Positions 8,774-60,817 of a DNA stretch of 64,000 nt are shown in pieces; positions within the stretch are counted from its first letter, which is position 1; every line of letters begins with the position of its first letter. Origin of the DNA: Diadema setosum (Eukaryota; Echinodermata; Echinoidea; Diadematoida; Diadematidae); assembly GCF_964275005.1 (NCBI RefSeq), contig NW_027307665.1, positions 186,001 through 250,000 on the forward strand, in the 5' to 3' direction. The translations under genes were made by a program, and so were the position numbers. A model generated the notes under the pieces. The model was not told the DNA's origin. It did not search any database and saw only the letters and a program-made list of their open reading frames with translations.

Positions 8774-8910
8774 TCAAAAGAGACTAATCTCTCTCCTCTT
8801 CACGATCACTGTCGCACAGGTCAACAACGACAGGAAGAACACGGCGACGAGCAGGGCGTACGTGGTCGACGGCTGCTGAAGAACTCCTCGACGAAGACCA
8901 GCAATTGGAC
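8774..8910 (-). CDS. Gene A last exon: transmembrane helix and short tail
   Basis: The acceptor CTTACAG precedes the exon, which opens in phase 1 and reads through a short stalk into a membrane segment (TYALLVAVFFLSLLTCATVI), then KRREISLF and a TGA at 8774-8776. The helix has no charged residue and the Lys-Arg-Arg stop-transfer cluster follows at once, giving a type I topology. The tail has no tyrosine, so it carries no ITAM or ITIM. The copy in gene B (51765-51901) has the same length with about five base differences and one changed residue (Gly to Ser in the stalk). Signalling, if any, must come through a partner. Confidence 0.85.
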
Positions 8911-9312
8911 CTGTAAGACATGACCAGATATTAAGGGAGTAAAAACTTATTTCGACATAACAGAAAAAGAATCACAAAGACGTTATGGTTAAATTTCACT
9001 CCGAGTCCAGACAGTAAGACCCCAGATTTCTCGTCAACAACTGGTCGTATCATCTACAGGATGTAATAATGTTTGACACTTTCTTTGAGTGTTTCTTAGA
9101 AGTAAAATTTTAACTGATAAACAAACACAGAGATTCCTGGCTTCGAGTGACTTTTACTATTAGAACATGTCTTACAAAATCGAGGCAAATTGGCTTAATA
9201 GATTTAGAGTTATGAATACACGGTGACTCCTTGTTCGATGTAAAAATATATTTATCTCTTCGTTTATTGAACATTGAGTCATCATCAGAGTACCTCGAAC
9301 TGACTTTAATAC

Positions 9313-9606
9313 CTTTCTCCAAGCCAAAAGATGGACAGTGTTCAACACTGGTGAAGGTCCAACCAATCCCGTTAGTACCAGAGCACGTGACATTGATGCA
9401 CCTGTTGCCTGGGCGTGGTCTGAAGAGAGCCGAGGCGCAGCTGGACGAGGAGAGCGTGGTGTTGTCGACTCCGATGGTGTAAGTGTGGAGGTGTGGGAAC
9501 GGCTGGTCTTCAAGACTGACGTGACACGTGATAACGAGAATGACCTGGTTTCCTTCGATTTCCTGGGTCTCGATGGAGAGGATGTCACTCGCCGGAGGCG
9601 CATGAC
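9313..9606 (-). CDS. Gene A Ig-like module 6 (membrane-proximal)
   Basis: A 294-base exon, phase 1 at both ends: acceptor CTCATAG, donor GAGAAAG/GTATTA. It encodes 98 residues starting HAPPASDILSIETQE, with the first core Cys in LVITCHVS, the module's DQPFPHL stretch in place of an Ig strand-C Trp, then RCINVTCSGTNGIG, which resembles an Ig F-strand (C-x-x-x-N-x-x-G), and a last Cys in EHCPS. N-linked sites are present in NTT and NVT. After the last Cys it has a longer stalk (FGLEKG) than other modules. Splicing to the next exon restores a Gly codon. The plus-strand open frame across it is a shadow. Confidence 0.85.
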
Positions 9607-9954
9607 CTATGAGAGCAAAGAACAAAATGACTGATTTATCTTCATTTCAAAGGAAAGCAACAGTGATCACAACAAGCCTCTCTTTGACAAATTGTGTCAA
9701 AACAGAAAATCAATCATGTAATTTGAACCAATCTTACTTAAAAGCAGATATCGATTCAAACATTTCATTCTAATTTTCGCTGTTTTCTTCTTCTATAACC
9801 TGCACAAAGACACGGATTATGCAGAGCACAAAAGCAAAATAAAGATGACCGAGAAAACTAGAAGAGTTAATATAAGCATATTAATACATTAAAACACATA
9901 CTTTCAGACATTCAAGGTATACTGTTACCATTTTCTAAATAACCACAACTCATA

Positions 9955-10712
9955 AATTTAGCTTAGCTTCATTCGTAGTTATCTGACCAGAAACCCAACA
10001 GAACAGCTTGTCCACGCTCTCATCTCTTCTCGCCTTGACTTTTGTAACTCTCTCCTCCTCGGCCTTTCCCAACGACAGCTCTCCAAACTTCAACGCCTCC
10101 AAAACTCTGCAGCTCGACTTGTCACCCTCACTCAGAAATCCTGTCACATAACTCCCGTTCTTCAGTCACTTCACTGGTTACAAGTTGAAAAGCGTATCAT
10201 CTTCAAAGTTCTCTTACTGGTTTACCACACAGTCCATGGATCCTCGCCACTCTACCTCCAGAACTCCATACATTTATATCAACCCCCTCGTAGACTCCGT
10301 TCAGCTGGTACTTCACTTCTCCATGTTCCTCGATCCTCTCACTCTTGGGGAGACCACAGCTTTTCCCACGCTGGTCCTTCTCTCTGGAACAATCTTCCCC
10401 TTTCTCTTCGTCAGGCTTCCTCAATCAATTCCTTTAAGCAACTCCTCAAAACACATCTGTTTAATTCCAAATCGTGAATGAACGTGATTGTTATTTGAGT
10501 CGTTTTGTACACTGTATAAGTTACTGTATAATTTGAATATGAAGGGTTTTTCTTATGTTCTGAGATTGATTTCGTTATGTATAGTAAGCATCTTGTTTTT
10601 GTTTGTTTTTCATTCGCTATTTCATATGTAAGAGCGCCATGAGCATCATCATTGATGGATTTTCAGCGCTTTATAAGAGGCCACTATTATTATTATTATT
10701 ATTATTATTAAA
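9955..10712 (+). mobile_element. CR1/L2-like LINE 3' fragment in gene A intron
   Basis: A frame stays open from about 9962 to a TGA at 10475 and reads as the C-terminal part of a non-LTR reverse transcriptase. Diagnostic stretches are LISSRLDFCNSLLLGL, LQRLQNSAARLVT, ITPVLQSLHWLQVEKRI and LWNNLPLSLRQA. A short 3' tail follows, ending in a TTA repeat (10683-10712), as expected of L2/CR1-type tails. It is 5' truncated. The same intron in gene B (about 53.08 kb) has no insert, so it landed after the duplication. The frame is intact over about 170 codons, suggesting relative youth. Confidence 0.85.
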
Positions 10713-10778: not shown

Positions 10779-11057
10779 CTGTTCTCAGTGGACAATAATT
10801 CCGCATAGAAACCGTCTCCCCGAATTGATTGATACCGGTGCATGATATATCGATACATCGGTTGGGTTGATCTTCCATGATTGTTGAAGATGCGTTGGAT
10901 CTTGACAGAATGTCACCATCCGCGGTGATTTCGAACACACCGATCGGTGGAAACGGTTGGTCGATCGGATCCACGTGACACGAGATATTGAGACTCGTTC
11001 CCAAGTTATTCTCGTCTACTTCTACCTTGATAGAGATGATATCAAGTGCAGGTGGAT
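10779..11057 (-). CDS. Gene A Ig-like module 5
   Basis: A 279-base exon, phase 1-1: acceptor ATTCCTCAG, donor GAACAG/GTAGG. It encodes 93 residues beginning PPALDIISIKVEVDEN, with core Cys in LNISCHVD, the DQPFPPIG stretch, then RCIDISCTGINQFG and a final Cys in RNYCPLRT. N-linked sites appear in NIS and NAS. It belongs to the second module subtype, together with the 19.3-, 55.9- and 59.9-kb exons. The gene B counterpart is 53162-53440. It could be described as a divergent C2-type Ig fold lacking the strand-C tryptophan. Confidence 0.85.
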
Positions 11058-11697: not shown

Positions 11698-11985
11698 CCC
11701 TCGGACAGTGTTTTGCCGTAGCGGAAGTAATTCCGACGCCATTAGTTGCGGAACACGTGACATTAATACATCTATTTGGGCGTGGTCTCAAGACGGCCGA
11801 GGTCCAGCTCGCGTTGGACAGGATGGTCCCATCAACTCCAATTGAATACGAATGGAGGTACGGGTACGACTGGTCGCTCAGGTTTGCTCTGCACAGGATA
11901 AGTAGATTCATCTGACGGTCTCTGTCCAGAAACTCCGAAGTCTTGATCGACAAGATATCAGCTGCTGGAGGCTCGCCACTGGTTT
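11698..11985 (-). CDS. Gene A Ig-like module 4 (KTSEF type)
   Basis: A 288-base phase 1-1 exon; acceptor TACACGTAG, donor CCGAGGG/GTGAGC. It encodes 96 residues starting TSGEPPAADILSIKTSEF. Core Cys lies in LLILCRANLS, followed by PYLHSYSIGVDGTI, SNASWTSA, RCINVTCSATNGVG and KHCPRG. N-linked sites: NLS, NAS, NVT. It is one of three near-identical exons in gene A (with 13064-13351 and 14101-14388), all embedded in similar introns, so exon and intron were duplicated together. Where an Ig domain would have Trp it has Tyr/His-rich PYLHSY; the Trp present (ASW) sits elsewhere. Confidence 0.88.
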
Positions 11986-13063: not shown

Positions 13064-13351
13064 CCCTCGGACAGTGCCTCGCCAAAGCGGAAGTAATTCC
13101 GACGCCATTAGTTGCGGAACACGTGACATCAATACACCTGTTTGGGCGTGGTCTCAGGACGGCAGAGGTCCAGCTCGCGTTGGACAGGATGGTCCCATCA
13201 GCTCCAATTGAATACGAATGGAGGTACGGGTACGGCTGTTCGCTCAAGTTCGCTCTGCACAGGATTAGCAGATTCATCTGGCGGTCTTTGTCCAGGAACT
13301 CCGAAGTCTTGATCGACAAGATATCAGCTGCTGGAGGCTCGCCACTGGTTT
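13064..13351 (-). CDS. Gene A Ig-like module 3 (KTSEF type)
   Basis: A 288-base phase 1-1 exon with the same borders as module 4: acceptor CACGTAG, donor GGG/GTGAGC. The product differs from modules 2 and 4 at only a few positions (for example NLSEQPYPYLHSYSIGADG, CIDVTC, TSALARHC). Four Cys and three potential N-glycosylation sites are kept. A poly-C run (minus strand) lies about 30 bases past the donor, as in the 14.1-kb and 55.0-kb units. The low divergence among the three copies implies recent expansion or gene conversion. Confidence 0.88.
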
Positions 13352-14100: not shown

Positions 14101-14388
14101 CCCTCGGACAGTGCCTCGCCGAAGCGGAAGTAATTCCGATGCCATTAGTTGCGGAACACGTGACATCAATACACCTGTTTGGGCGTGGTCTCAGGACGGC
14201 CGAGGTCCAGCTCGCGTTGGACAGGATGGTCCCATCAACTCCAATTGCATATGAATTGAGGTATGGGTACGGCTGGTCGCTCAGGTTCGCTCTGCACAGG
14301 ATAAGTAGATTCATCTGACGGTCTTTGTCCATGAACTCCGAAGTCTTGATCGACAAGATATCAGCTGCTGGAGGCTCGCCACTGGTTT
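14101..14388 (-). CDS. Gene A Ig-like module 2 (KTSEF type)
   Basis: A 288-base phase 1-1 exon: acceptor ACCCTTAG, donor GGG/GTAAGC. It encodes the same module as 11698-11985 and 13064-13351, with differences such as SEFMDKDRQ, YPYLNSYAIG and TNGIG. YPYLNSYAIG also occurs in gene B's 57.9-kb module, which suggests mosaic exchange between modules. The flanking intron (14.39-14.8 kb) contains a second, partial repeat of its own sequence (about 14.39-14.50 against 14.51-14.6 kb). Confidence 0.88.
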
Positions 14389-16786: not shown

Positions 16787-18790
16787 TTCAATTCAATTCA
16801 AAGTTTATTTCATTTTGCGACAAAACATATGTTTCACTTCTTTTGATAACAGAGAATGAGGTAAATAGAACATAGTGAAGTGAAAAGACTGTACAACAAT
16901 TGAGGACCTATAGTAATCATACATAGTATAGTACAAAAGAAACAGAAGTGATCAAAGTGAAGTACAGTATAGCGTTGCATAAAGTGCGAAAAATGGAGGG
17001 ACCCACTAAAGAGACAGAGCTTGTAGTATGTGGGCCCCTCTGAAAAAGAACATCGATGGAAAGATGAATTGAATCATCGTAGATACAAAAAATAACAAAG
17101 TGGAAGAAGTCTGGAAGCCCACTAAAAAATTAGATTACCAGATATACACTTTCATAGACGCGAACAAACATGAAACAGGACTAGACAACAAGATAAATAC
17201 TGAAGAAAAGATTGTACAGGACAAAACGGGATGGACAAGACTGACAAACTGAAGACAAAATAGCAGACAAGAATGCACAACACAAACAGAAACAGAACAA
17301 CAGAAACAGCGATCTTCGGCAGAAGCATGCCAAGAGAAACAGAAGATAGTTGTGGGGAAAAAGTAATATTTTGACGCCTGAAGAAAAGACAAGGAAATAG
17401 AAAATAGGGGGACGTATGAACAGGAGTAACATACGGAAAGTCAACTTCAAGACGCTATGGGCAAAATGGCATAGATGACAACATTGCGAACATCCAGGAA
17501 AAATTACCATTAATTTTACGAAGAGGCATAGATGACAACATTGCGAACATCCACAAAAAAAAAATACCATTAATTCTACGAAGGGGGGACAAAGTGAGCA
17601 TATCAGTATGTAAGAAAAAAGGCCAAATGGTTAATTCGTAATTACAGAGTCATACGATTGCAATAAAAAAGACTTCAGTCTCCTCTTAAAAGAATATATG
17701 GATGGAGCGTTTTTTATGTGATGATTCAAAGAATTCCAATAATTTGGGCCTACATAAATAAGTGTGTTTTTAGCAAAATCGTTCTTAAAAGAGGTAAATG
17801 AAATTCACTGGAACGCCTAGAGGGATATTCATGAAATGATTGATTTTTGAGGAACATAGAATCAAAAATAGACGGAAGCAAGTTATTACAATACTTGTAC
17901 ATAAATTGCCCTAAATTGAACAAAAACATATTTTTAATCTGTAATTTTTAAGAGCTTGTTGAAGGGAAACAACATATTTGTATGAAGACGTACGGGGAAT
18001 AACAGATAACACGGAGGGCTTTCTTTTGTAAAAGGAACACTCTCTTTAATTAGTTCTGATGCGTGTTGCCCCAAACTAATATTCCATAATTAAGATAAGG
18101 GAATATTAACGACGAATATAACATAAGTAATGATTTTTGTGGAAAATGAAATTTCAATCTATTTACAATGCCTATATTACGTGAAATTATATTGCAAACA
18201 TTATCAACATGTGATTTCCAGGAAAGTTTGTCATCCACAATGACACCCAAAAATTTGATATGTGAGACTCTTTGTAGGTGAGAGTCATCTAATACTATAT
18301 TTGTACTTAGACTATCAACAGTATTACTAAAAAGCATTATATTTCGTTTTTTGTGCATTAAGTGATAGCCTATTGGCCCTGACCCAGTTTGTCACTTTTT
18401 TTTCAATTCAATGTTAATTTTATAAAGAAGAAAATCAACATCATTATGGGCCAAAAATACATCAGTGTCATCTGCAAAATGAATAAAAGAGAGGTCGTAG
18501 GATACGCGACAGAAATCGTTGATATAAATAATGAACAATAATGGCCCTAAAAGACTTCCCTGTGGGACGCCACATTTTACTTCTCTGACAACGGAATCAT
18601 TGTTATCAATTGTAACAAATTGTTTTCTATCAACTAAATAACTCTTGAACCACTCCAAGGCCTTCCCACATATTCCATAATGGGATAACTTATAAAGTAA
18701 AATATCATGATTGATAGTGTCGAAGGCCTTGGAGAAGTCTAAGATGTCAATATCACGAAAGTAAACTGCTGTTCCCTCCACACTCGCCAC
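16787..18790 (-). mobile_element. 5'-truncated CR1-like LINE (reverse transcriptase and 3' UTR)
   Basis: On the minus strand, 18790-18392 encodes reverse transcriptase motif A (DFSKAFDTINHDILLYKL), motif B (GVPQGSLLGPLLFIIYIND) and the catalytic FADD box. After a frame break the thumb region follows (FLGVIVDDKLSWKSHVDNV, 18358-18050). The rest to 16787 is 3' UTR ending in an AATAAA-like signal and a short TTGAA-rich tail. The 3' UTR matches the 37.2-38.17-kb LINE on the plus strand (shared GGGCCC and GTGGGTCCCTCC-like blocks), so it is the same family. Gene B has no copy here. Frame breaks and truncation make it inactive. Confidence 0.85.
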
Positions 18791-19187: not shown

Positions 19188-19469
19188 CACAGCTCCTCAC
19201 ACAATGAGTCCGTGTAGTGGTCGTCCTACCGATCTCATTAATACCAGTGCAGGAGATTTCCACGCATCCGCTGGGAAGAGGGTCAAGGGTCACTGAAGGC
19301 GAGCTTGAAGATGACTGAATGACGTCATCGATTGCAATCTCGTATGTCCCGATTGGTGGAAATGGCTGGTCACAGGAGTTGACGTGACACGTGATCCTGA
19401 GGCCATTAATTTCTCGTCCATCCTCGTTGTCAAAGATATTGATCGAGATGATATTGTCTGCTGGAGCGT
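19188..19469 (-). CDS. Gene A Ig-like module 1
   Basis: A 282-base phase 1-1 exon; acceptor CACGTGACAG, donor TGTG/GTAAGTG. It encodes 94 residues beginning APADNIISINIFDNEDG, with LRITCHVNSCDQPFPPIG, YEIAIDDVI, a Ser-rich run, GCVEISCTGINEIG and THCVRSCG. It has six cysteines rather than four: extra ones in HVNSC and VRSC could pair with each other. Its gene B orthologue is 59762-60046. An in-frame read-through upstream of the acceptor is intron. Confidence 0.85.
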
Positions 19470-24813: not shown

Positions 24814-24942
24814 GTTGCACCTGTAACGTTCTAGACTGCTGACTGCTGAGAAGTTGGCACTGAAGGACGCCCCCATGGTCAGCTACCGTCGGACTTAATG
24901 TCAGCTCGCTACGAACGTTGTACGTATCTACGTTGGCGGTTC
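24814..24942 (-). CDS. Gene A Ig domain, second-half exon
   Basis: A 129-base phase 1-1 exon: acceptor CTGTTTTAAG, donor GTGCAAC/GTAAGT. It encodes 43 residues, TANVDTYNVRSELTLSPTVA then DHGGVLQCQLLSSQQSRTLQ. This is the E-F-G portion of a conventional Ig domain: S-x-L-x-L, then the D-x-G-x-x-x-C signature. The half carrying the first Cys and the strand-C Trp must come from an upstream exon; the best candidate in the window is 45181-45369. Gene B's copy is 60689-60817. Joined to module 1 the border codon becomes CAC (His). Confidence 0.85.
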
Positions 24943-28412: not shown

Positions 28413-29849
28413 GTGTCAAATAATAAGCTCAACCAAGTTAAAACATCATGTGATTTATTGAACGCTCTAAAAACTTATTCTGGCATGAATATTGCACATC
28501 TCAATGTTTGTTCTCTTGTTAAAAATATAGACGAAATTCGACTCATAATGCAAAAATCACATATTCATATATTAACTCTATGTAAAACCAGGCTAGATGA
28601 TTCAATTAGTAACGAAGAGATAGGAATTCCGGGCTTTAAGATAGCCAGGAGAGACAGAAATAGACAAGGCGGCGGTGTAATTATGTATATTTGTGAGACG
28701 TTAAACTTCATCATTAGAGAAGATCTGCACATCGAAGGATTAGAGTTATTGTGCATTGAAATTAGTTTGGAAAAACAGAAACCATTTTTAATCATGTCAT
28801 GGTACAGACCCCCGACTCATATGCTCATATATTCGATTCGTTTGAAACAGTTCTGCAGACTATCGAAGTGCAACAAATTGAATATCTTTTGATTGGAGAT
28901 CTCAATTGTGATCTATTATCAGGAAAATTATCACACAGTAGCAAACGTTTACTTGAATTGATGAAAGATTATAGTTTGAAGCAATATGTTACTGAGGCCA
29001 CACGTGTGACTGAAAGCACTGCAACAAAAATAGATCTCGCACTCGCGCCATGTGATAAAATCTTACATTGCAACGTTATTCAAGTAAGTTTGAGTGATCA
29101 TTATATGATTGCAGTGACATGGGGGAAATGTAAACCTCATATGCAAAGAGATCACAATTATATTTGTTCACGTAATGTTAAGAAAATTGATGTTAATACA
29201 CTGATAAGATATCTGCAGGAGTATTTCGTGAATGATGACCTTGAAATGAATGATACTAAAAAGGCTTATGAGAATTGGGTTGAAAGATTTAAAGCCGCCC
29301 TAGATACACAGGCTCCTGTTAAAAGGAAAAGAGTGCGAAAACAGAAGTCTCCATGGATGAATAAACAAATACTGGACACCATGCGAGAAAGAGATAATAT
29401 GAAAAATAAAGCCAAAGAATCTGGAGTACCTGCTGATTGGCAGCGATATAAAAAAAAACTTAAAAACCGTGTAACTTCTCTGATTCGTTCAGCAAAACGT
29501 GTGTATGTTGTAGACAGTATTTGTAAGAGTAAGGGAAACTCCAGTGCTATATGGAAATTAGTACGATTTTTGATACCAGGCAAGAAGACATCTAATATTC
29601 AAAAGGTAAAATCAAATGGTGAAGAAATAACAGATGGTAAAATTATAGCAAATGTGTTTAATGATCATTATGCTGATCCTGTAAGATGTAGAAAGGCATC
29701 GACTAATTTCCAGGCAAATCCTGAGCAATTTCTCAAACCAATGTCACGTGATATTTTATTTTACTTCACTCCCGTTACTGAGAAGGATGTGTCGAAGATA
29801 GTAAAGGAAATACCCAGGAATAAAGCAACAGGACTTGATTATATTTCTG
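28413..29849 (+). pseudogene. LINE ORF2, endonuclease and start of reverse transcriptase
   Basis: The APE-type endonuclease begins NIAHLNVCSLVKNIDEIR. The position that normally holds the catalytic Glu of S/N-E-T-x-L-D reads LCKTRLDD, so Glu appears replaced by Lys. A frame shift occurs near 28810, after FLIMSWYRPP, in a C-run; the next frame carries LLIGDLNCDLL and SLSDHYMI, the D-x-N and S-D-H catalytic motifs. The region before the reverse transcriptase fingers ends at NKATGLDYIS (29849), where a 5.3-kb element begins. The rest continues at 35136. Confidence 0.8.
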
Positions 29850-30156
29850 CCCCCCCAAGGAAAAACGCAGTATCTACATCCAGCTCCATTTCTCAACAAC
29901 CGAGATATTCACCATTTTATGTTTTTGCCAAAGCCCCTGGAAAATATACTCTTCTGAAAAATTCCTTCATTGTGGAATTTCAGTCTATCTATCTACCAAT
30001 TTTCCTGGAAAATATCATTTTGTGTTTTTGTTTCGTTTTTAAGTTATTAATGGAAATGTAGATACTTTGGGGAAACCCCATGCAATTGACTGATTTCCCC
30101 AAGGAAAAACGCAGTATCTACAATGGAACAAATTTCCCCAAGGAAAAACGCAGTAT

Positions 30157-30549
30157 GGTTGAGGGGTCTAGATATCGCGCACGAAAATTTGAAATGCTCT
30201 TATAATAGAAGTTATTCCATAATCGTACCTGAATTTCTCAATGAATATCACGAAAATGCAGAAAAATCACCTCCCAGAATCTCCTGATGATACGATGACG
30301 GAGTAGTGCGCTGTCGCCGTTTGTATGTCGGACTTTTTTTTAATGCGCTCAATTTCTCGGGGTATGTAAAGATCGCGCAGCTGCCCTCTGTAGTTTCATG
30401 CGTGAACGTGTCTGCCCCTCTGCGGCTGTAGCTGTAACGTGCTCCGCCGGCTTTCATAGAATATTTTTTCACTTGATATTAAATTTGTCCCTGTTAAGCA
30501 ACAGCAGTTTTACCTAACTTGTGTATATTATTGTTATTATTATTATACG

Positions 30550-30586
<37 letters not shown>

Positions 30587-30856
30587 GTTGTTATTATTAT
30601 TATCATTATTACTATTATCACCACCACCATCATCGATCATCATAATCATCATCATCATTATCATTTTCATTATTATTATTATCTCACTTCCACCACCATC
30701 ATCATTTTATCATTCTTATTATCATTATTTTTATCATTGATATTTTCATAATCGTTAATGATTTTCATTTATAAAGTTTTCTTACAATATTTCTAATCAC
30801 TTTAGGCAATAATATACACGTAATATAAAATGGAAAAAAGTAAAATATGAACATAT

Positions 30857-30887
<31 letters not shown>

Positions 30888-31522
30888 TTGTGTGTGCTTA
30901 CCCATTCGTCACCCTCTCATTTTTGTCACCCATTTGTCACACTCTCATCTAATTTGTTTTCTTCAGTATCATTATGGCCCTCCCCTGTCACAAATATATC
31001 ACAAGTTAGCGCAAGAAATCGCAAGCAAATTCAAATTGAAATCACACTTCAACTTCGATAGACTGAAATATTTATTCCTTTGTAATATCATAATCGTTGT
31101 GTTAAGATTTGACTTAAAACAACATTTATTAACAGTATTTCAGCTTAGCTGGCAGCATACATTGTTCTTGTGTATGATGACGTCACGTGGTAAACGATCG
31201 ATCGAATAAATTACGAATTCTATCGACTACGAACGAGACAAGCGAGACGACACGTCTAGGCTACAACATCCTTAGAACTGATTTTAAGGGAAGGTAGGTT
31301 TGTACAAGGTAAAAAATTGGAAATTTAGTGGAAAATTTGTTGGAAATCAAAATTTCTTACCTGCTTCCTTCTCATGTTGAGCGGTAAGTCAGGTATGTTT
31401 ATTCCATGGGCGTATCGGCAAATTTTGCGCTTAGTCCTACGCGTAATATCGCTTGCTATACGCAGTTACGCTATGCGCGATCATTAGGTCCCTGCGCGAG
31501 ACCTAGTACCCTTACTATATCT
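30157..31522. repeat. Internal direct repeat, copy 1
   Basis: From TATGGTTGAGGGGTCTAGAT to GAGACCTAGTACCCTTACTA it is nearly identical to 32517-34118, apart from one insertion and microsatellite length changes. It includes TTA/ATC repeats (30525-30740) and a TG run (30861-30887). No coding sequence was recognised. Confidence 0.85.
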
Positions 31523-31529: not shown

Positions 31530-32515
31530 AATGACTAGGGCTGTAATGTGATGCTACATGGCCTAGCCGCTAACTAGCATCTAGAATACTAGATCTAGAT
31601 CTGTACAGTCTAGGCTAGAGTCTGTCTAGACCAAAATAAATCTAAATCGGATGTCTGGACCTAGATCGATCTAGACTAGCTCTAGTTTTTATATCGTTTA
31701 TTCTAGGCTGGCTACGTAGCAGGCTACACGAGTCTACAGCCTCAGGCTATGCACGATACTCACAGAAAAAAAAAATAGCCTAACGTTAGAACTGCAGAAG
31801 GTTTAGTCTAAGCCCTACACAAGACAGGACTCTTTAATTAGAAAAAAATAAATCTAGAACCGGTCTAGATCGAAGTGACATCCGCTCTCTAGGCCTAGGG
31901 GTCATCTATTCCTCCTGGATTGAACCTAAGTTTGTTATGTCATGTAAATTTGTAATGTAACTTTTTTACTTGTAACGTTAAGTTGTAGAATGCAGCATGG
32001 AATCATGTACGCATTTTACGCAACCCAGTCTCACTAGGGTCTAGACACTGTCTAGATCCGATAAGAATTGAAATACAACTTATTCTTAACTGTCTCTATT
32101 TTGTCCATTTACCGTGGGTAGGCCCCTACCTATTATTCACATAGGCCTAGGCCTAATCTATTTTCAACTAGATCGCTGTCTATGTAATTATAAGACAGTA
32201 TGGTATGGAGTAGATAATTGAACATTGACACTTCACTAGCGGTGATAGAGTTAGGAATAGGATTCTGAGTGGTTAAGTTTTAGTCTTAGACTTCTTTCTT
32301 AGTTTTATAAACAGGCCTGCCCTAGAGTAGGCCTATTCTAGTCCTACACTACATCTTTCTCTAGACTTTCGGAATACGGACCCTGAAAGTTCTGATTAAC
32401 GTTAGGTCTAACGTTAGAAAAGAGACGCAAGACTCAAACGTTACTGTGTAGACAAGTCTTAGACTTGGACTTGGTTCTAAATAGAGTCTATAGGGTCTAA
32501 CAATAACATGTTAGT
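31530..32515. other. CTAG-dense, gene-free core
   Basis: About 1 kb packed with CTAG and overlapping palindromes such as CTAGATCTAGATCT, TCTAGAC and TAGGCCTAGGCCTA, plus repeated CTAACGTTAG. No frame, promoter or RNA was recognised. Composition is unlike all neighbouring sequence; only 34140-34175 has the same flavour. Confidence 0.6.
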
Positions 32516-32516
32516 A

Positions 32517-35214: not shown

Positions 35215-35772
35215 AGGGAAGGTAAACCCAAAAAGCAATGTGGATTGAGTGAAAGCAGCAACATTAGTAGAACACATCAGTGAAAGTTTGAGGAAAATCG
35301 GACAGTCGATGCAAAAGTTATGAATTTTTAAAGTTTTAGTGTTGAAACCGCTGGATGAGGAGACTACTAGAGGATATGACGTATGAGTGGACAACAATAC
35401 AAAGAAAATATGAAGGAAATTCAACAAAAATCCACTTTTCTAGAATTATGAAAGAGCAATGGACCAACCTCTTTCAGAAAGCAGGGGGAATAATTGCTAC
35501 CCCTAACATATGCCAATATCAAGTTGATGGAATTTGTAATTTTCATGAAAAATGGATTTTTGTAGAATTTTCTTTATATTTTCTTGGTATTGTTGTCCAC
35601 TCATACGTCATAACCTCTAGTAGTCTCCTCGTCCAGCGGTTCCAACACCAAAACTTTAAAAATTCATAACTTTTGCATCGATTGTCCGATTTTCTTCAAA
35701 CTTTCACTGATGTGTTCTACTAATGTTGCTGCTTTCACTCAATCCACATTGCTCTTGGGGTTTATCTTCCCT
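35215..35772. mobile_element. 558-bp TTAA foldback element with about 215-bp arms
   Basis: TTAA flanks it at 35211-35214 and 35773-35776. The left arm begins AGGGAAGGTAAACCC and the right arm on the other strand AGGGAAGATAAACCC; homology continues for about 215 bases with few mismatches, leaving a small loop near 35440-35550. Removing it with one TTAA rejoins LINE codons as NLSLMEGHVPDEWK, the normal reverse transcriptase sequence. A transcript would form a very stable hairpin. Confidence 0.92.
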
Positions 35773-35776
35773 TTAA

Positions 35777-37164
35777 TGGAAGGACATGTTCCTGATGAAT
35801 GGAAATTAGCTCGGATAACTCCCGTGTTTAAAAATGGAGATGTTTGCGATCCTCGCAACTACAGGCCGATTTCTGTGTTACCCGTCCTATCGAAGGTAAT
35901 TGAAAAAGTTGTTTTTAAGCAGACTTACACATATCTCACGGAGAACGATATCTTGTGCCCGAATCAATTTGGTTTTAGGCCAAACCACTCGACAAGCCTT
36001 GCACTCTTAGAACACACTGAAAATATAAGCACCGCCATAGACAATGGTTATGTTGTGGGTTTGGTAACCTTGGACTTAGAAAAAGCATTTGATATGATTT
36101 TCCATGATATCTTGCTCAAGAAACTGAAATTGTACGGTTTCAATGATGATGTATTAAAATGGTTCAAATGTTATTTTTCTGTTCGTAAGCAAGTAACTAT
36201 TATAAATGAACATACGTCGACCACATCATTTGTCACATATGGGGTACCCCAAGGCAGTTTACTAGGGCCATTGTTGTTTATTCTATACATGAACGATCTA
36301 CCTCGTGTCGTCCATCATTGTACTGTATCTCTGTACGCAGACGATACTTGTCTATACGTAGCAGCTAAAGACCCCTATGAGCTTGAAAGAAAGTTGAATG
36401 ATGACTTAACCTCAGTAGTGAACTGGCTGAGCCATAACGAGTTACTATTGAATGTAAAAAAGTGCAAAGCTATGCTGATGGGATCACAAAGGAGATTATC
36501 CCGTTTTCGTAACGTGTCTTTCTGTATTCAAACTAGCAAGCTGGATTTTGTCTCGGAATGTAAATACCTTGTTGTTATTCTCGATAGTCATTTGTCCTAG
36601 AATCCACAAATAAGTCATGTTAAGTCAAAGAAATTAAGTAGTTTACACGTGTTAAGACGCACACGCGCATTCATTGACCTAGATACCGCGATCTGATTGT
36701 ACAAAAGCATGATACAACCCCATTTTGACTACTGTAATACAATTTGGATGCATTCAAATTCTACCGCCATACGGAAACTCCAGGTCGTTCAGAATAGGGC
36801 ACTGAGAATAATCCTACAAGTAAATGGTATGTATAGTCGAAAGCTACTGTATGAAACCTTACATATAGACTGTTTGAATGTGAAGTTAGAAAAAGATCTG
36901 GCTATATTGGTTTTCAAACTACTACGCAAACTTGTTCCTAGGGAGATTTCTGCTATATTAACAACAAAATCCTCACATTACCAGCTGAGAAATAACGTAT
37001 CCAAAGTTTCCCTCCCAAAGCCAAACACAAATCTCAAGAGAAACAGCGCATTGTATGTAGCGTCAAAAGTTTATAACAGCCTTCCGATTAATCTCAGATG
37101 TGAAACTCAGTCGAATAGATTTGTGTCAAACATTAATTGTATCATTTTCCAAACTCGGTTTTAA
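35777..37164 (+). pseudogene. LINE ORF2, reverse transcriptase to C-terminus
   Basis: Continues the same element: HVPDEWKLARITPVFKNGD, NYRPISVLPVLSKVIEK, QFGFRPNHST, LDLEKAFD (motif A, with MIF where NHD precursors usually have TVNH), GVPQGSLLGPLLFILYMNDL (motif B) and LYADDTCLY (catalytic YADD). A TAG at 36598 and an in-frame TGA near 36693 interrupt the thumb. The C-terminal part (YKSMIQPHFDYCNTIW, LQVVQNRALRII) is otherwise open to 37164. Family and layout match the minus-strand fragment at 16.8-18.8 kb. Confidence 0.88.
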
Positions 37165-38739: not shown

Positions 38740-39960
38740 GTTAATTGACCTGCTTATGACCTTTGACCTTGTGGTGACCTTCAACATTATAAGGGACATT
38801 TACATTTATGTACTATCCAAGTTTGGTCACAAACGGACAAAGGGATCAAAAGTAACGAGCCATAATCGAAACGCGCCATAAAAACTTAACATTGGGCCCT
38901 AAAAATTTGTTGACCCCTTTCTGTGACCTTTGACCTTGTGATGACCTTTAACTTCGCAAGGGACATCTACCGTCCAAGTTTGGTCCCAAACGGACATAGG
39001 GATCAAAAGTTATGAGCCACAATCAAAACACGCCCTAAAAACATAACATTGGGCCCTTAAAGTTTGTTGACCCCTGTCTGTGACCTTTGACCTTGTGACG
39101 ACCTTCACCTCTTCAAGGGACATGTATCTTCCATCCAAGTTTGGTCACAAATGGACAAAGGGATCAAAAGTTATGAGCCATGAACGAAATGCACCCTAAA
39201 ATCTTAACATTGGGCCCAAAAAGTTCGTTGACCCCTGTCTGTAACCTTTGACCTTGTGGTAACCTTCAACTTCCCAAGAGACATCTACCATCACCAAAGT
39301 TTGATTGCCATTGTAGCAACATGTGCTGAAGTACGTATGATAAGAGAGTCTTGCAGGTAAACTTTAACGTATGACCTCAAATGACCTTTGACCTTATCAT
39401 GTGACCTCTTTCGGCACCATAACATGAAGGTACCCCCAGTGCATCCATCACCCTAGTTTGATTGCCATTGTAGCAACATGTGTCCAGTTACATGTGATAA
39501 GAGAGTCTTGCAAGTAAACTTTAACGTATGACCTCAAATGACCATTGACCTTATCCTGTGACCTCCAACGGCACCATGACATGAAGGTACCCCCAATGCA
39601 TCTATGACCAAAGTTAGGTTGTAATCCAAGCAACTTTTGTGAAGTTATTTGTCAAAAGAGAGTCTTGCAGGTAAACTTTAACATAGAAAAGAGAGTCTTG
39701 CACATACTCTTTAATATATGACCTCAAATGACCTTTGACATCATCACATGACCTCTGACAACACCATAACATGAAGATACCCCTAGTGCTTCTATCACCC
39801 AAGTGTGGCTGCCATTGCTGTAATAGTTGCTAAGTTATGCATCATAAGAGAGTCTTGCAGGTAAACTTTAACATTTGTGACGGACGACGGACGACGGACG
39901 GACGACGGACGGACGCCATTTGGATCCCTTAGTCTCGCCTTCACCTCCGGTGGGCGAGAC
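38740..39960. repeat. Two-part tandem repeat with TGACCTTTGACCT motifs
   Basis: Four units of about 160 bases (starts near 38743, 38909, 39063 and 39226; marker GGGATCAAAAGTTATGAGCC) are followed by four of about 157-187 bases (near 39298, 39455, 39612 and 39799; marker AAGAGAGTCTTGCAGGTAAA). Both types contain TGACCTTTGACCT-like sequence. The tract ends in a GACGGACG run (39876-39918), then TCTCGCC...GGCGAGAC, which forms a small terminal hairpin. No coding sequence was seen. Confidence 0.8.
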
Positions 39961-41285: not shown

Positions 41286-41594
41286 GGTCTCCTTCACATC
41301 TCACTCCGACGTCTTCATTGTGAACACAGGCATGGCATCCCCACGGCCCATGTCGGCATTGTAGCAGAGAGTTTTCCGTTCCATGACAGCAAACAGAGTC
41401 ATACCATATTTGTCCAGATCCCGCCCCAAAGTGGGCTTCACTGTAATGAGCTGAGGCCGAGGAGTAGCCGAGGTCTCTACACACCACGTGTGCATCGCTG
41501 ATATCCCAACTATCGTCACAAACCGTGCCCCACTGCCCGTTACAACTTATCTCAACTCGGCCTTCATTTTGGGTTGATCCACCAACCAACCTCA
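41286..41594 (-). CDS. SRCR domain exon (probable gene A)
   Basis: A single 309-base phase 1-1 exon: acceptor GTTCTTCTAG, donor GACC/GTAAG. It encodes a full scavenger receptor cysteine-rich domain of about 103 residues: RLVGGSTQNEGRVEI, WGTVCDDSWDISDAHVVCRD, LGYSSA, GSGQIWYDSVCCHGTENSLL, QCRHG and GVRCEGD. Cys positions fit the group B pattern with an extra CC and a CHAC pair. One exon per SRCR domain is also seen in group B families. SRCR domains bind polyanionic or microbial ligands in known receptors. Upstream, the strong GTGAGT donor at 41991 would restore the usual VRLVGGS start. Joined to 24942 it gives an Arg codon. Confidence 0.9.
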
Positions 41595-41990: not shown

Positions 41991-42063
41991 CCGCATAGCC
42001 AGGGCACGTAGTTGTACCACTGCTACAGCAATTTAGAATGGCCGCTGTACTCTTGCATTTCGT
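41991..42063 (-). CDS. Possible small Cys-rich exon before SRCR
   Basis: A strong donor (TATGCGG/GTGAGTA) ends a frame reading KCKSTAAILNCCSSGTTTCP then GYA; joined to the SRCR exon it yields AVRLVGGS, exactly the expected domain start. The 5' border is uncertain: either GACAAAGGCAG at 42064 (73 bases, branch-point-like CTAAC nearby) or TTGCTGTAG at 42023 (32 bases). Domain identity is unclear; the CC...C...CPGY spacing recalls EGF-like modules. Confidence 0.4.
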
Positions 42064-45180: not shown

Positions 45181-45369
45181 AGTCGCATTGGGGTTGCACT
45201 ATATCTTGGACTATGGCACTGCTAGCGGTGGTGAACCCCTCTGTGATTTGGATGCCATTCAAGTGCCAAGTCACACCCAAGCTCGGGGCATCATTTCCTG
45301 TACACACTGCGGTGACTTCACGGCCTGCCCGTAGAGGCAAGGGTACCTCGAGGTTCAACGTTGTCCCAG
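45181..45369 (-). CDS. Gene A Ig domain, first-half exon
   Basis: Acceptor ACTTTTGCAG; the exon opens in phase 1 and reads GTTLNLEVPLPLRAGREVTA, VCTGNDAPSLGVTWHLNGIQ, ITEGFTTASS. This is the A-B-C part of an Ig domain with the B-strand Cys and the invariant strand-C Trp. The 3' border is uncertain: GT sites follow 45220 (A/GTGCCA, phase 1), 45181 (T/GTGTAG, phase 1) and 45179 (phase 0), none strong. The chosen end gives 63 codons in phase 1-1. That end joined directly to 24942 would make TGA, but joined to the SRCR exon it reads Leu. Confidence 0.65.
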
Positions 45370-45683: not shown

Positions 45684-45744
45684 CACCCATGTGAATACTT
45701 ATGAAAAGAAGCCCCAACTGCACCAACATTCGGTTGTCAATCAT
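45684..45744 (-). CDS. Gene A first coding exon: signal peptide
   Basis: Begins ATG (45742-45744; a second ATG at 45727-45729) and encodes MIDNR then MLVQLGLLFISIHMG, a short hydrophobic signal peptide. It ends at a good donor, GGGTG/GTAAGC, in phase 1. Joining it to the next exon at 45369 makes an Ala codon, so secretion signal and Ig domain follow directly. I prefer the second ATG because it gives a tighter signal peptide, though the first is in frame. No TATA box was recognised. Confidence 0.65.
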
Positions 45745-51764: not shown

Positions 51765-51901
51765 TCAAAAGAGAGAAATCTCTCTCCTCTTCACGATCAC
51801 TGTCGCACAGGTCAACAACGACAAGAAGAACACGGCGACGAGCAGGGCGTACGTGGTCGACGGCTGCTGAAGAACTCCTCGACGAAGACTAGCAATCGGA
51901 C
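51765..51901 (-). CDS. Gene B last exon: transmembrane helix and short tail
   Basis: A 137-base exon with acceptor CGTTTTAAG, phase 1. It encodes PIASLRRGVLQQPSTT, then the membrane helix YALLVAVFFLSLLTCATVIV and KRREISLF followed by TGA at 51765-51767. Near-identical to gene A's exon. The strong conservation of a tail this short suggests that membrane anchoring, rather than cytoplasmic signalling, is what selection has kept. Confidence 0.85.
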
Positions 51902-52487: not shown

Positions 52488-52781
52488 CTTTCTCTGAGCC
52501 CAAAGTTGGACAGTATTCAACGCTGGTGAAGGTCCAACCAATCCCGTTAGTACCAGAGCACGTGACATTGATGCACCTGTTGCCTGGGCGTGGTCTGAAG
52601 AGAGCCGAGGCGCAGCTGGACGAGGAAAGCGTGGTGTTCTCAACTCCGATGGTGTAAGTGTGAAGGTGTGGGAACGGCTGGTCTTGAAGACTGACGTGAC
52701 ACGTGATGACGAGAATGACCTGGCTTCCTTCGATCTCCTGGGTCTCGATGGAGAGGATATTACTTGCTGGGGGCTCGTGAC
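52488..52781 (-). CDS. Gene B Ig-like module 6
   Basis: A 294-base phase 1-1 exon (acceptor CTCATAG, donor GAGAAAG/GTATTA), orthologous to 9313-9606. Encodes HEPPASNILSIETQEIEG, VILVITCHVSLQDQPF, a Ser-rich segment, RCINVTCSGTNGIG and EYCPT. The plus strand also has a long open frame here, which is a shadow of the exon. Confidence 0.85.
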
Positions 52782-53161: not shown

Positions 53162-53440
53162 CTGTTCTCAGTGGACAGTAATTCCGCATAGAAATCGTCT
53201 CCCCGAATTGATTGATACCGGTGCAAGATATATCGATACATCGATTGGGTTGATCTTCCATGATTGTTGAAGAGGCGTTGGATCTTGACAGAATGTTTCC
53301 ATCAGCGGTGATTTCGAACACACTGATCGGTGGAAACGGTTGATCGATCGGATCCACGTGACACGAGATATTGAGACTCGTTCCCCAATTATCCTCGTCT
53401 TCTTCTACCTTGATAGAGATGATATCAACTGCAGGTGGGT
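53162..53440 (-). CDS. Gene B Ig-like module 5
   Basis: A 279-base phase 1-1 exon orthologous to 10779-11057: ISIKVEEDED, LNISCHVDPIDQPFPPIS, SRSNASSTI, RCIDISCTGINQFG and RNYCPLRT. A tandem repeat of the exon's last bases lies 55 bases downstream, creating a second donor-like GAACAG/GTATAG at 53107. Its use would change the phase from 1 to 2 and so shift the frame into the last exons. Confidence 0.85.
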
Positions 53441-53736: not shown

Positions 53737-54688
53737 CGCCCTACTTTGGCAAAAGGGAGCAAGTGACATCGAGTACAAGTGCTATAAATGAAGAAAATAT
53801 GTTTAGGGTAGGCCTTCCAATATGGAAATCTGTGATGAGAACAAATGTCAGTATTCGTGCAAGTCATATGGTGATGCATTTATGACAATTCGGAAAAAAA
53901 TTGATATTCCCATAGAAACTGATTATTATGTAACTCGCTTCCTTTTGTCAAAGTATTGTCGATTTGTAGCAAACATGAAAAATCTGGCAAAAGAAATCAT
54001 GTGACAATCATATCATGAGTATATTACTTGCTTCCTTTTGCCAAAGTATTATAAGTTCGTAGCAAACACAAGAAATGGCAAAAGGAAGCAAGTGACAATC
54101 ACATCATAAGGATGTCACTTGCTTCCTTTTGCCGAAGTATTTTAGACTGTGTGCAAATATAAATAACTTGGTAAAAGGAAGTGACTATCATATAATGAGG
54201 TTGTAACTTGTTTCTTTTTGCCAAAGTATTTCAGATTTTTAGCAAACATGAAAAATCAAGGAAAAGGAAGCAAGCGACAATCAAATCATGAAAATGTTAT
54301 ACTTGCTTCCTTTTGCCATAGTATTATATATATTTTAGCAAACATTAAAAAAATGGCAAAAGGAAGCAAGTGACAATCATAACCATAAGGATGTTACTTG
54401 CTCCCTTTTGCCAAGGTATTTTAGATTGTGTGTAAATATAAATGATTTGGCAAAGGGAAGCAAGTGACAGTCATATCATGAGGTTGTAACTTGCTTCTTT
54501 TTCCCATTTTTTTTTGCATGCAATTGTGTGCACTTGCTTCCTTTTGCCTTCCCGAATATCTCAGAAATGGGCAAAAATTCTAACTTTTGGATTTTCAGTT
54601 AAATAGAGCATGCTTCAAATATGCCAAATCAAGAAAAGTCAATATCCATGAAAATGTCACTTGCTTCCTTTTGCCAAAGTAGGGCATT
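53737..54688. mobile_element. Foldback element built of an alternating 20-bp motif
   Basis: The outer ends are inverted: GCCCTACTTTGGCAAAAGGG near 53737 and TTGCCAAAGTAGGGC at the right end. Inside, CTTGCTTCCTTTTGCCAAAG and its reverse complement alternate about 15 times (near 53936, 54029, 54075, 54117, 54205, 54303, 54355, 54398, 54449, 54533 and 54660), roughly 40-50 bases apart. Gene A has an empty site at 11.35 kb (AGGCCTATAATA). No coding sequence. Confidence 0.85.
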
Positions 54689-54971: not shown

Positions 54972-55259
54972 CTCTTGGACAGTGCCTCGCCAAAGCGGAA
55001 GTAATTCCGACGCCATTAGTTGCGGAACACGTGACATTAATACACCTGTTCGGCCGTGGTCTCAGGAGGGCTGAGGTCCAGCTCGCGTTGGACAGGATGG
55101 TCCCATCAGCTCCAATGGAATACGAATGGAGGTACGGGTACGGCTGGTCGGTCAGGTTCGCTCTGCACATGATTAGCAGATTCATCTGACGGTCTTTGTC
55201 TAGGAACTCCGAAGTCTTGATCGACAAGATATCAGCAGCTGGAGGCTCGCCACTGGTTT
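54972..55259 (-). CDS. Gene B Ig-like module 4 (KTSEF type)
   Basis: The only KTSEF-type exon in gene B; 288 bases, phase 1-1, acceptor TACCCGTAG, donor AGAG/GTGAGC. Encodes TSGEPPAADILSIKTSEF, LLIMCRANLTDQPYPYLHSY, SNASWTSALL, RCINVTCSATNGVG and RHCPRG. It is very close to the three gene A copies, and its flanking intron matches theirs. Confidence 0.88.
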
Positions 55260-55787: not shown

Positions 55788-56069
55788 CATCGTTCCTTGG
55801 ACAGTATGTTTCTGTAGTGATCGTTCTACCGATGTCGTTGATGCCGGTGCAGGAGATTTCCACACATTCACTCGGACGGGTCTCAATGGTCACGGAAGGG
55901 GAGCTTGAAGCTGACTCGATGACGTCATTCACTGCAATTTCGTATGTCTCAATTGGTGGAAATGGCTGGTCACGTGGGTTGACGAAACACGTGATCTTGA
56001 TGCCATCTATCTCCTGCCCATTCTCGTGGTCAGCGATCTGAATCACGATGATATCGTTCGCCGGAAGAT
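55788..56069 (-). CDS. Gene B Ig-like module 3, no counterpart in gene A
   Basis: A 282-base phase 1-1 exon: acceptor TTTGTCACAG, donor GATG/GTAAGT. Encodes LPANDIIVIQIADHENGQ, IKITCFVNPRDQPFPPIE, YEIAVNDVIES, ECVEISCTGINDIG and ETYCPRND. It is of the 19.3-kb subtype, so it arose by exon duplication from that type, or gene A lost its copy. All core Cys are kept. Confidence 0.85.
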
Positions 56070-57878: not shown

Positions 57879-58169
57879 CCCTCGGGCAGTGCCTTTCCCA
57901 CGTGGAGGTGATACCGACACCGTTCGATGCGGAGCACGTGACGTCTAAACACCTGTTTGGGCGTGGCCTAAGGATGGCCGAAGATGAGCTCGTGTTGGAC
58001 AGGATGGTCCCATCAATTCCAATTGCATATGAATTGAGGTACGGATACGGCTGGTTGTTTCTGTTTAAGCGGCAAATGATTAGCAGATTCATTGTACGAT
58101 CTCTAGCTTGGAAATCCAGAGTCTCGATAGACAAAATGTTCGCTGCTGGAGGGTTGCCGCTGGTTGTCC
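57879..58169 (-). CDS. Gene B Ig-like module 2 (ETLDF type)
   Basis: A 291-base phase 1-1 exon; acceptor ACCTTTCAG, donor AGGG/GTGAGC. Encodes TTSGNPPAANILSIETLDF, LLIICRLNRNNQPYPYLNSY, SNTSSSSAIL, RCLDVTCSASNGVG and RHCPRG. It is a diverged member of the KTSEF group: the Trp of NASW is replaced by Ser. It occupies the place of one of gene A's extra KTSEF modules. Confidence 0.85.
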
Positions 58170-59761
58170 CTGAAAGGTAAAGAAGGCAGATGCAGTGTTA
58201 AGTGTAGTGATATTAGTGTCGTCATTGCAGAAATCTTGCTTCAAACGTGACACATGCAATAAGATGGATATTTGTTATTAAAGCAGCATGAGACAGCATG
58301 GGAAAAAAAATCTTTTTCCAATGAACGAATTCTTGAGCATTTCTTGAAGCATTAGACAATCCAAGAACGGATGAATGGATACAAAATTACGTCCAAAAAA
58401 GAAGAAAAACAAAACAAGGAAAACAGACAGACGCACACATACTCACACAAACACCCCCATAAGTATACTATTTTCATCTTCCCCTAATTTGCTCCCGACA
58501 GTAGGACATCAACATCTACGTGAAGATCGTGACAGAAAACAGAAGCAGAAACAAAACACAGCTTCGTGTGTCCTGGTATGAAAAGATCCAATCCTGCTGA
58601 ATTCAGCTTAGATAATTATATTTGTCTCCAGTAACAACCAAACAGAGTTTACACTCGTGCCGTTTCATTATCAATCTTTTCTGTGCTTTTAGAGTACCGA
58701 TTGGCGCAGAAAATGCCATAGCATAATACTATAGTACACACCGCCCAAAGTTCCCGGCACAAAAAAAAAAAAGAAAAAGATGACTGAAGGAAGACGAGTG
58801 AGTGATAATACATCCTTTTTATCCGGGAAGATGTATTACCTTCATTGAAAACCGTGGCCGCATAGTCAGTAATATTTCATGTTTTAACCAATGAAATGTC
58901 CCTTCATGAAACCGGTCTGATCAGAACTAATTATCTCAGCCTAAACATTGCTATAATCATTTTACCGAAAGCTTGTAATCTGTGTTCTGAATAGGGATGG
59001 ATCGCCAACTCTTCGATTATAATCGATTATGATTTTTCTTCGGAATAAGATGAATGATTCCTTTTCGTTGGTTTGCATTCTGAGACAATTTAACGCCCTG
59101 AGTATCATTTGGTAAAAGCTTGTCAAACTCTGCTTATGGGGGTCACAAGAAGTGTATATTTATTTACAACAATCTTTAGCAGCATTTAGAATACCTTCAG
59201 TTGATTGTGAGCTTTCCTAATAAGTTTTTGTCGTTAATTATTTTTCCCCAGTAGAGAGAATACAGCGTTTTTTTTCCCGCCATTTTCGATCCAATTTGCT
59301 CTAGATCTAACCATGACACCCTACCAGAGTGGTCATTGATGTTCGCATGAAACACACCGAGAACACGGATTATATCAAGTTATATTCAGACATTTTTTTT
59401 ATATATATATATTGAGGAATGCCACCCATTACATGTAATTCATCAACAAGTCAACGTAAAAAAAAAGAAAGAAAAGAAGATAAAAATGAAAATATCAGGA
59501 AATCATAATTATTGCCAACACTCTTCAATCTACACAGATCTACCAAAACTAGAACAGACTTTGCGACAAATTGGCGAGGACTAAATTCATAACATAAAGT
59601 TATAAATTCATCTATTGTACGTTTAAAGACTGACCGGTTGGAAAACACTTTTTTCTTTCTCTCTCTCTCTTAAGATGAAATCTTGCGGATTTCTTGATAT
59701 CCTTTCATTCTAGATGTGAAAAGACTTGGTGCATATCGTACAAGATCTATTATTCACTTAC

Positions 59762-60046
59762 CACATCTCCTCACATAATGACTACGGGGTGCGGTGGTCG
59801 TCCTACCAATCTCATTGATACCAGTGCAGGAGATTTCTACGCATCCAGTGGGAGGAGGGTCAAGGGTCATTGAAGGGGAGCTTGAAGATGACCGGATGAC
59901 GTCATCAATTGCAATCTCGTAGGTCCCGATTGGTGGATATGGTTGGTCACTGGGGTTGACGAGACACGTGATCCTAAGGCCATTAGTTTCTTGTCCGTCC
60001 TCGTCATCAACGATCTCGATCGAGATGATATTGTCTGCGGGAGCGT
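59762..60046 (-). CDS. Gene B Ig-like module 1
   Basis: A 285-base phase 1-1 exon, orthologous to 19188-19469: APADNIISIEIVDDEDGQ, LRITCLVNPSDQPYPPIG, YEIAIDDVIRS, GCVEISCTGINEIG. The C-terminal end is altered, reading APRSHYVRRCG where gene A has THCVRSCG, so the fourth core Cys is Tyr. The extra Cys of gene A's HVNSC is also absent. Remaining Cys in RRC may substitute. Confidence 0.85.
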
Positions 60047-60688
60047 CTGTCATGTAACCAAGAGGTTTAAGCAGATAAGTTATTTCAGTAACCCTAGATT
60101 AAAGGCTAGTTAAGGGTATATTGCCTACAAAAATATGCATTCGTGTGACCTTGCATCACAAACCTCACACTATCGATCGGGACTGAATGCTTTATTGATT
60201 TACGAATCCTTTCCTTCACCAGATAAACACAAGTTTATTCTTTGTTTGAATATAAAGTCCATTACTTATTACATTAGGCAAGCGTATGCAGTATGTCGCA
60301 TTGATAGCGAGGAAAGTATTTAACCATCTGAGAAAAAAAAAAAGTCATTTCCAAAGTGCGCACAATAGCTAACTGCGAAATGGCTTAATGTATAATTGAT
60401 TGTTTGTTTATGACGGTCGGTTCTCCCCCCCCCCCCCCCACACCCATACACACACTTTTTGAATATCAATCGGGGAAATATTCAGAGTTGTACCTAAGAA
60501 GATTGGAGTTCTTAACTTATTTACGTATGTTAACGTATATTGTAACCGGAAGCAAACACGAAATTTGGGTGGAGTAAATCTTTTCCAAAAATAAGCTAAA
60601 AAAAAGCTGAAAAAGGGAATCACAAGAAGCATTTATATTAGTGATATCATTGGCACAGCCTGTTCTTGAAGGCATTTTTGTTGCTTAC

Positions 60689-60817
60689 GTTGGACTTGTA
60701 ACGTTCTAGACTGTTCACTCCTGAGAAGGCTGCACTGTAGCACGCCCCCATGGTCAGCTGCTGTTGGATTTAATGTCAGCTCGCTACGAACGTTGTACGT
60801 ATCTACGTTGGCGGTTC
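60689..60817 (-). CDS. Gene B Ig domain, second-half exon
   Basis: A 129-base phase 1-1 exon: acceptor TTTTAAAG, donor CCAAC/GTAAGC. Encodes TANVDTYNVRSELTLNPTAA then DHGGVLQCSLLRSEQSRTLQ, orthologous to 24814-24942. The first half of the domain is expected beyond the window. It confirms that the exon order upstream of the modules is shared. Confidence 0.85.

Follow-up and report, generated by a model that had tools for sequence, protein, structure and literature searches.

An SRCR exon nested in the gene for one immunoglobulin domain in a large Diadema family of probable type I membrane receptors

Tandem genes built from exons with the same phase at both borders raise the question whether their modules are freely exchanged or held in a fixed arrangement. 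We addressed this for two minus-strand genes, A and B, in a stretch of 64,000 nucleotides from the sea urchin Diadema setosum (contig C39:186001-250000 of a genome of 912.7 Mb; hereafter the window, to which positions without a contig name refer). The original prediction had described A and B as tandem receptor genes of freely exchangeable phase-1 Ig-like exons. Our analysis supports tandem paralogues whose exons are symmetrical (1-1), whose products are type I membrane proteins with several modules, and which differ in K copy number. The SRCR exon of these genes sits inside the gene for one immunoglobulin (Ig) domain, between an exon for the N-terminal half (half1) and an exon for the C-terminal half (half2). 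Ig exons of phase 1-1 are ordinary, and the excerpted text of PMC4284660 reports a 1-1 phase bias of shuffled exons and Ig domains in metazoans. What is new is the constant SRCR-in-Ig exon order in a large family so far found in one urchin genus only, not the exon symmetry. In the open-licence PubMed Central (PMC) literature we found no paper that describes an SRCR domain inside an Ig domain. Nor did we find one there on the nuclear genome of a Diadema sea urchin, the hits being on a fly and on the D. antillarum mitochondrion.

The order half1, SRCR, half2 was found in A, in B, in a third gene at C39:170 kb and in the nine genes that lie complete within 200 kb fetched from contig C3. Genome-wide we recovered 104 consecutive half1-half2 pairs. 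Exactly one SRCR exon lies in 78 of them (some on C39 and C3 are allelic copies, so that independent loci number fewer than 78), none in 26 and more than one in 0. Outside contig C12 the pattern holds for 78 of 81 pairs, the exceptions being two on C3 and one on C17, and control intervals shifted by 3-15 kb (2000 trials) reproduced it for 18.1 of 81 on average and never for more than 30. The nested order was seen on eight of the nine contigs holding such pairs. These counts are based on 127 of 148 matches to the half1 query (21 rows weaker than E 2.9e-4 were left out), 109 matches to the half2 query and 115 SRCR places, taken from two SRCR queries with at least 150 matches each, partly at the same places, after contigs and regions without Ig halves had been set aside. 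An apparent lack of SRCR in C17 pairs was dismissed, as the second SRCR query found their SRCRs.

On C12, none of 23 half1-half2 pairs enclosed an SRCR among the matches listed. One of these intervals was read directly and contained no SRCR by the family profile, which gave E 2.4e-60 in the positive control. Far from genes A and B, C12:10728775-10793170 is densely packed with dozens of SRCR exons whose scores are nearly equal; many follow one another at about 740 bases. At C16:10.32-10.48 Mb the half1-SRCR pattern is followed by no recognized half2, which may have diverged past detection or been lost.

Half1 and a Cys-rich linker exon had been absent from the original prediction. Together with the signal exon they complete gene A, which comprises 12 minus-strand exons in a single open frame of 865 codons, running from 45744 to 8774 (Table 1). 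The exon phases are 0-1, 1-0 and 0-1, and thereafter 1-1 up to the last exon. A signal exon was found upstream of half1 in 12 of 12 genes examined. An end of half1 at A/GTGCCA was rejected on the basis of the annotated model P0058 and the linker exon, which show a phase-0 donor, ATA/GTGCAA. The SRCR domain scores 111 bits with PF00530 (cut-off 26.1). Group B SRCR domains have one exon per domain and eight cysteines; that of gene A occupies one exon and counts nine cysteines, so that membership of group B would be tentative. Where complete, the tails of the family stop shortly after KRR(E/K), some relatives ending in VY, and the tails of A and B contain no tyrosine.

When the whole protein of gene A was compared with Pfam, the SRCR domain alone exceeded its cut-off and no Ig domain was reported, likewise in model P0010; the split of the domain may explain why annotation misses it. 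Each half by itself stays below cut-off, with half1 matching Ig_2 positions 9-41 and half2 matching C2-set_2 positions 54-85. A computed join of half1 and half2, with neither linker nor SRCR, reaches 28.6 bits with C2-set_2 (cut-off 21), while the form that would arise by SRCR skipping, half1-linker-half2, barely passes at 21.8 bits against the same cut-off. The split domain is covered by the Ig profile over strands B-F and has the two core cysteines and the core tryptophan; C23, W35 and C85 are invariant across seven joined sequences. A profile of the joined halves matches antibody and T-cell-receptor constant domains as well as CD22, with a best whole-chain E of 2.7e-5, and single stretches of antibody light chains match it at E around 0.001. 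Because half1 and half2 match these parts of the Ig profiles, the SRCR exon lies between the parts for what we take, from the usual Ig topology, to be strands B-C' and E-F. These profile matches suggest that half1 and half2 fold jointly into one Ig domain.

The fifteen minus-strand exons of the original prediction, which we take to be the SRCR, half2 and six modules of A and half2 and six modules of B, are present, each flanked by AG and GT and with both borders in phase 1. Of 84 homologous exons in the window and in neighbouring stretches that were fetched, 80 have AG and GT sites in the right phase close to the homologous edges, by a script tolerating sites within about 40 bases. The four exons failing the 1-1 test comprise one cut by the edge of the fetched stretch, two with in-frame stops and one that is decayed. 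Since the splice-site test is lenient and lacks a chance rate, the reality of the exons rests more on purifying selection and on homology between genes. The pooled ratio of nonsynonymous to synonymous substitution rates (dN/dS; calculated on stop-free exons that have both splice sites) is 0.21-0.36 across eight exon classes, with 0.24 for half1 (55 pairs, 11 sequences), 0.28 for SRCR and 0.21 for half2. Both Ig halves are under purifying selection. Compared with their counterparts on C3, gene A gives 0.30 (five exons) and gene B 0.21 (seven exons).

The claim that any module can be skipped without damage to the frame holds for eight of the ten internal exons of gene A when omitted singly (SRCR, half2, T, the three K copies, S and H). 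Omission of half1 or the linker alone breaks the frame, but together they amount to 243 bases, and their joint omission keeps it.

Downstream of half2, the genes read have either no full modules or three to nine, which run T, K(n), S, H. The module profile finds its best match among solved structures in an Ig domain of SYG-2 (E 0.0034). The three exons with the KTSEF motif (type K) reported for A, against one in B, were recovered, as was the extra module of B at 55.8 kb. B also has a divergent K module (K'), and each of the two genes has six full modules. The T-K'-T2-K layout of gene B recurs in the C3 gene at 44780 kb. K copy number varies from 0, in two C3 genes, to six in the C3:44857 gene, where three are identical. 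Full modules are missing altogether between half2 and the membrane anchor in two C3 genes, the C39:170-kb gene and also P0058. In a tree of 56 modules (filtered like the pooled dN/dS set), T, K and S are each recovered as a supported clade, support for the H clade is weaker (81/59), and the four labels need the minimum possible number of changes; labels were assigned by best match, so that this grouping is partly built in, and long branches meet. Other module series occur in more distant branches of the family, and the fixed order holds for the C3/C39 cluster.

Half1, SRCR and half2 distances among 11 genes are uncorrelated (Mantel r -0.04, 0.21 and -0.01; 1175, 316 and 1046 of 2000 permutations as high), as expected if the exons have reassorted; the test covers 11 of 12 genes, the decayed C3:44729 gene being left out, and is weak because the exons are short. 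Within gene A, the aligned parts of 24.5-45.18 kb are mostly nearer to the C3:44804 gene than to the C3:44780 gene, with a near tie between the two in one 500-base segment that includes the SRCR, while the stretch from 45.19 to 47.5 kb is about 96% similar to the C3:44780 gene. Gene A is chimeric relative to C3, the derived copy being either that of A or that of C3. Exchange is positional, not free. The proposal of freely exchangeable modules therefore survives in part: some exchange between paralogues occurs at corresponding positions, but the C3/C39 genes read keep the fixed order T, K, S, H, and 78 of 81 non-C12 pairs hold exactly one SRCR. Compared with C3:44.69-44.74 Mb, C39 is 98-99% identical at 117.8-126 kb and 150-158 kb, whereas A and B mostly show about 75-95% identity to the C3 genes. 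Either the two are haplotypes that differ in gene content, or the region was duplicated in the assembly.

In a genome search for further members, as the original prediction had proposed, the anchor-exon query gave at least 127 matches with E no higher than 0.01 out of 150 candidates scored (the weakest may be due to chance), on C3, C39, C12, C14, C17, C19, C20 and other contigs. Protein searches returned relatives from D. setosum and D. antillarum only (58, 14 and 3 proteins listed), in a method that detects only relatives sharing exact 5-residue words and leaves absence outside Diadema unproven. The profile search behind the three proteins missed most of its own members and was not informative. 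A and B probably belong to a Diadema family of type I membrane receptors that is very large. Half1, SRCR and half2 are joined in the models P0010, P0057 (D. antillarum) and P0058 (D. setosum). Public annotation names P0048, P0057 and P0058 neurotrypsin-like, galectin-3-binding protein B-like and DMBT1-like.

We consider it probable that these genes encode a family of type I receptors in which SRCR is nested in the gene for one Ig domain, the exon order recurs, the exons are joined, the halves fold together and the likely function is immune recognition. The order read in the genome is signal peptide, half1, linker, SRCR, half2, Ig-like modules, and a single anchor whose tail is about eight residues long. 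Joined in one mRNA, these exons would give a protein in which half1 and half2 fold as one Ig domain that presents the SRCR domain from its edge, forming a composite membrane-distal head. Duplication of K would alter the length of the stalk, and tandem duplication together with intronic recombination would reassort heads and stalks among paralogues. Surface recognition in immunity, of microbes or non-self, would be the most likely role. Because the tail is so short and no signalling motif was seen in A or B, the receptor would depend on a partner or work as a co-receptor in adhesion, scavenging or phagocytosis. An immune role is plausible given the size and clustering of the family and the types of domain it contains.

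Several observations weigh against this reading. SRCR is followed by half2 in 36 of 65 annotated models (by best match), yet only five of these 36 have half1 before the SRCR (P0010, P0014, P0015, P0057 and P0058), and P0017 joins the signal peptide directly to SRCR. The count of five in 36 speaks against a constant use of half1; the annotated proteins are themselves predictions, many family models show no evident signal peptide, and incomplete 5' ends may be the cause of the missing half1. Joining of the exons is predicted from the genome and from annotated models, and joint folding from profiles, where the best matches of the joined halves each add up several weak stretches. Support for the modules as Ig domains is weak. 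Only one of 21 has an Ig match in Pfam below E 0.01 (Ig_2 at 0.0013, followed by one BARF1_ig2 at 0.011), comparing the module profile with that of the split Ig gave no match, and a conserved core tryptophan was not found by eye in the module alignment. In-frame stops occur in three of the nine C3 genes (one in SRCR, together with a decayed half2, one in T and one in the anchor), and some family members are pseudogenes or carry errors. dN/dS gives no sign of overall positive selection, and the immune role is deduced rather than directly observed.

Two rival explanations concern the use of the exons. The SRCR exon could be a splicing cassette, whose inclusion yields the SRCR head and whose skipping yields a plain Ig head of half1, linker and half2. 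Skipping would keep the frame of gene A, and relatives without SRCR between the halves exist, namely the 23 C12 pairs (among the matches listed, one checked directly) and model P0039. P0039 is however possibly an annotation error and the skipped form only just exceeds the Ig cut-off, and we regard the cassette as a tentative idea. It is also conceivable, but unlikely, that half1 is mostly unused, the signal peptide being spliced straight to SRCR and half2 serving as a mere spacer. The 31 of 36 SRCR-half2 models without half1 before SRCR, the junction in P0017 and the frame-neutral omission of half1 plus linker would fit this explanation, but the low dN/dS of half1 indicates purifying selection, and half1 is open and present, adjoining the signal exon, in all 12 genes.

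Other rivals concern function and novelty. That the proteins are ordinary, non-immune adhesion or developmental receptors would agree with the overall purifying selection and with the best module match, since SYG-2 is a cell-adhesion protein; a large, clustered family so far found in a single genus only, with changes in copy number and a chimeric gene is more typical of recognition families, and we find this alternative somewhat doubtful. Least is to be said for the view that nothing special has to be explained, namely that tandem duplication acted on 1-1 Ig and SRCR exons of a kind shared by many deuterostome genes. The metazoan 1-1 bias (PMC4284660) and the tandem SRCR expansion in a sea urchin (PMC10855680), as far as the excerpted texts describe them, favour it, but exon symmetry alone predicts neither that SRCR is nested at one place nor that it is present in one copy, which makes this explanation quite improbable. 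We therefore prefer the nested SRCR-in-Ig receptor family. A wider form of it remains speculative: a new Diadema receptor head, with SRCR in the C'-E region of an Ig domain in 78 gene copies of one assembly (some allelic), one SRCR per head, a variable stalk, intronic reassortment and a switch by SRCR skipping, might serve diversified recognition specific to the genus.

Known receptor families share parts of this architecture. CD163 and WC1, mammalian group B SRCR proteins, are type I membrane proteins with SRCR exons that belong to a multigene family; unlike the Diadema family they have tandem SRCR domains and longer tails with signalling motifs, and are not known to have a split Ig domain. 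KIR/LILR and the Siglecs are tandem Ig receptors that vary in module number, as the Diadema family does, and the joined Diadema halves resemble an Ig domain of the Siglec CD22. These receptors are not known to have an SRCR insertion, and their tails often carry tyrosine motifs that are absent from A and B. Sp185/333 (SpTransformer) resembles the Diadema family, in the excerpted accounts, as a set of fast-changing echinoid gene clusters with repeats, duplications and deletions. The Sp185/333 proteins are different and have, to our knowledge, no Ig or SRCR domains. The SRCR superfamily of Strongylocentrotus purpuratus is described in the excerpted text of PMC10855680 as large, arranged in tandem clusters, and including arrays of SRCR as well as combinations with EGF, Sushi, CUB and other domains. 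The Diadema family is alike in being echinoid, large, tandemly clustered and in combining SRCR with other domains, but differs in that SRCR is nested in Ig, an arrangement not described in that text; Diadema is not mentioned anywhere in the paper.

If the halves do fold around the SRCR domain, the family would provide a natural nested-domain receptor in many gene copies, and a good system for studying how a domain is inserted without loss of the fold and then retained at exactly one copy. Diadema has been hit by mass mortality, that of D. antillarum having been traced to a ciliate (PMC10115408, PMC10206462, in the parts available). The family is large, clustered and apparently different between two assembled copies of one region. 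Because it is large, clustered, apparently variable, so far found in Diadema only, and the genus suffered mass mortality, it is a candidate recognition repertoire of the genus, and differences in survival could be sought there.

The 5' part of gene B lies outside the window, at C39:265.3-278.6 kb, and is included in Table 1 with the junction in gene A and the exons carrying in-frame stops.

Table 1. Exons of genes A and B and related features (positions in the window unless a contig is given).
Feature	Position	Strand	Phase	Remarks
A exon 1, start codon and signal peptide MIDNRMLVQLGLLFISIHMG	45684..45744	-	0-1	tblastn with annotated Diadema signal peptides; donor GTAAGC
A exon 2, half1, N-terminal half of C2-type Ig domain	45200..45369	-	1-0	homologous to annotated P0010, P0057, P0058
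A exon 3, Cys-rich linker	41991..42063	-	0-1	homologous to P0057/P0058 linker
A exon 4, complete SRCR domain in a single exon between Ig halves	41286..41594	-	1-1	Pfam PF00530 E 3.8e-32; splice sites
A exon 5, half2, C-terminal half of Ig domain	24814..24942	-	1-1	with half1 passes Pfam C2-set_2
A exon 6, Ig-like module T	19188..19469	-	1-1	
A exon 7, module K (KTSEF) copy 1	14101..14388	-	1-1	
A exon 8, module K copy 2	13064..13351	-	1-1	
A exon 9, module K copy 3	11698..11985	-	1-1	
A exon 10, module S	10779..11057	-	1-1	
A exon 11, module H	9313..9606	-	1-1	
A exon 12, single transmembrane segment, tail KRREISLF, stop	8774..8910	-		98% identity to B over 46 translated codons
Paralogue-switch junction in A relative to C3	45181..45186			in the intron that follows half1, about 14 bases from its start; A lacks about 0.9 kb of the C3 intron
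B signal exon	C39:278558			
B half1	C39:278003-277854			
B linker	near C39:266.1 kb			
B SRCR	C39:265646-265344			
B half2, C-terminal Ig half	60689..60817	-	1-1	
B module T	59762..60046	-	1-1	
B divergent K module (K')	57879..58169	-	1-1	
B second T module (T2)	55788..56069	-	1-1	
B module K	54972..55259	-	1-1	
B module S	53162..53440	-	1-1	
B module H	52488..52781	-	1-1	
B last exon, transmembrane segment and short tail, as in A	51765..51901 (about)	-		
SRCR exon with in-frame stop	C3:44735210-44735524			
Membrane anchor with in-frame stop	C3:44804345-44804479			
T module with in-frame stop	C3:44831804-44832082			

The introns of gene A contain fragments resembling the endonuclease and reverse transcriptase of long interspersed nuclear elements (LINEs), at 28766-30061 (+), 35614-36600 (+) and 18392-18790 (-), the endonuclease match lying slightly under the Pfam cut-off. 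Part of the length of the 16-kb intron between SRCR and half2 is due to the LINE-like fragments inside it. Direct repeats, each about 1.4 kb long and with pieces that are 94-99% identical, occupy 30152-31520 and 32513-34119, and short-period tandem repeats lie in introns or between modules at 38757-39874 and 53927-54507.

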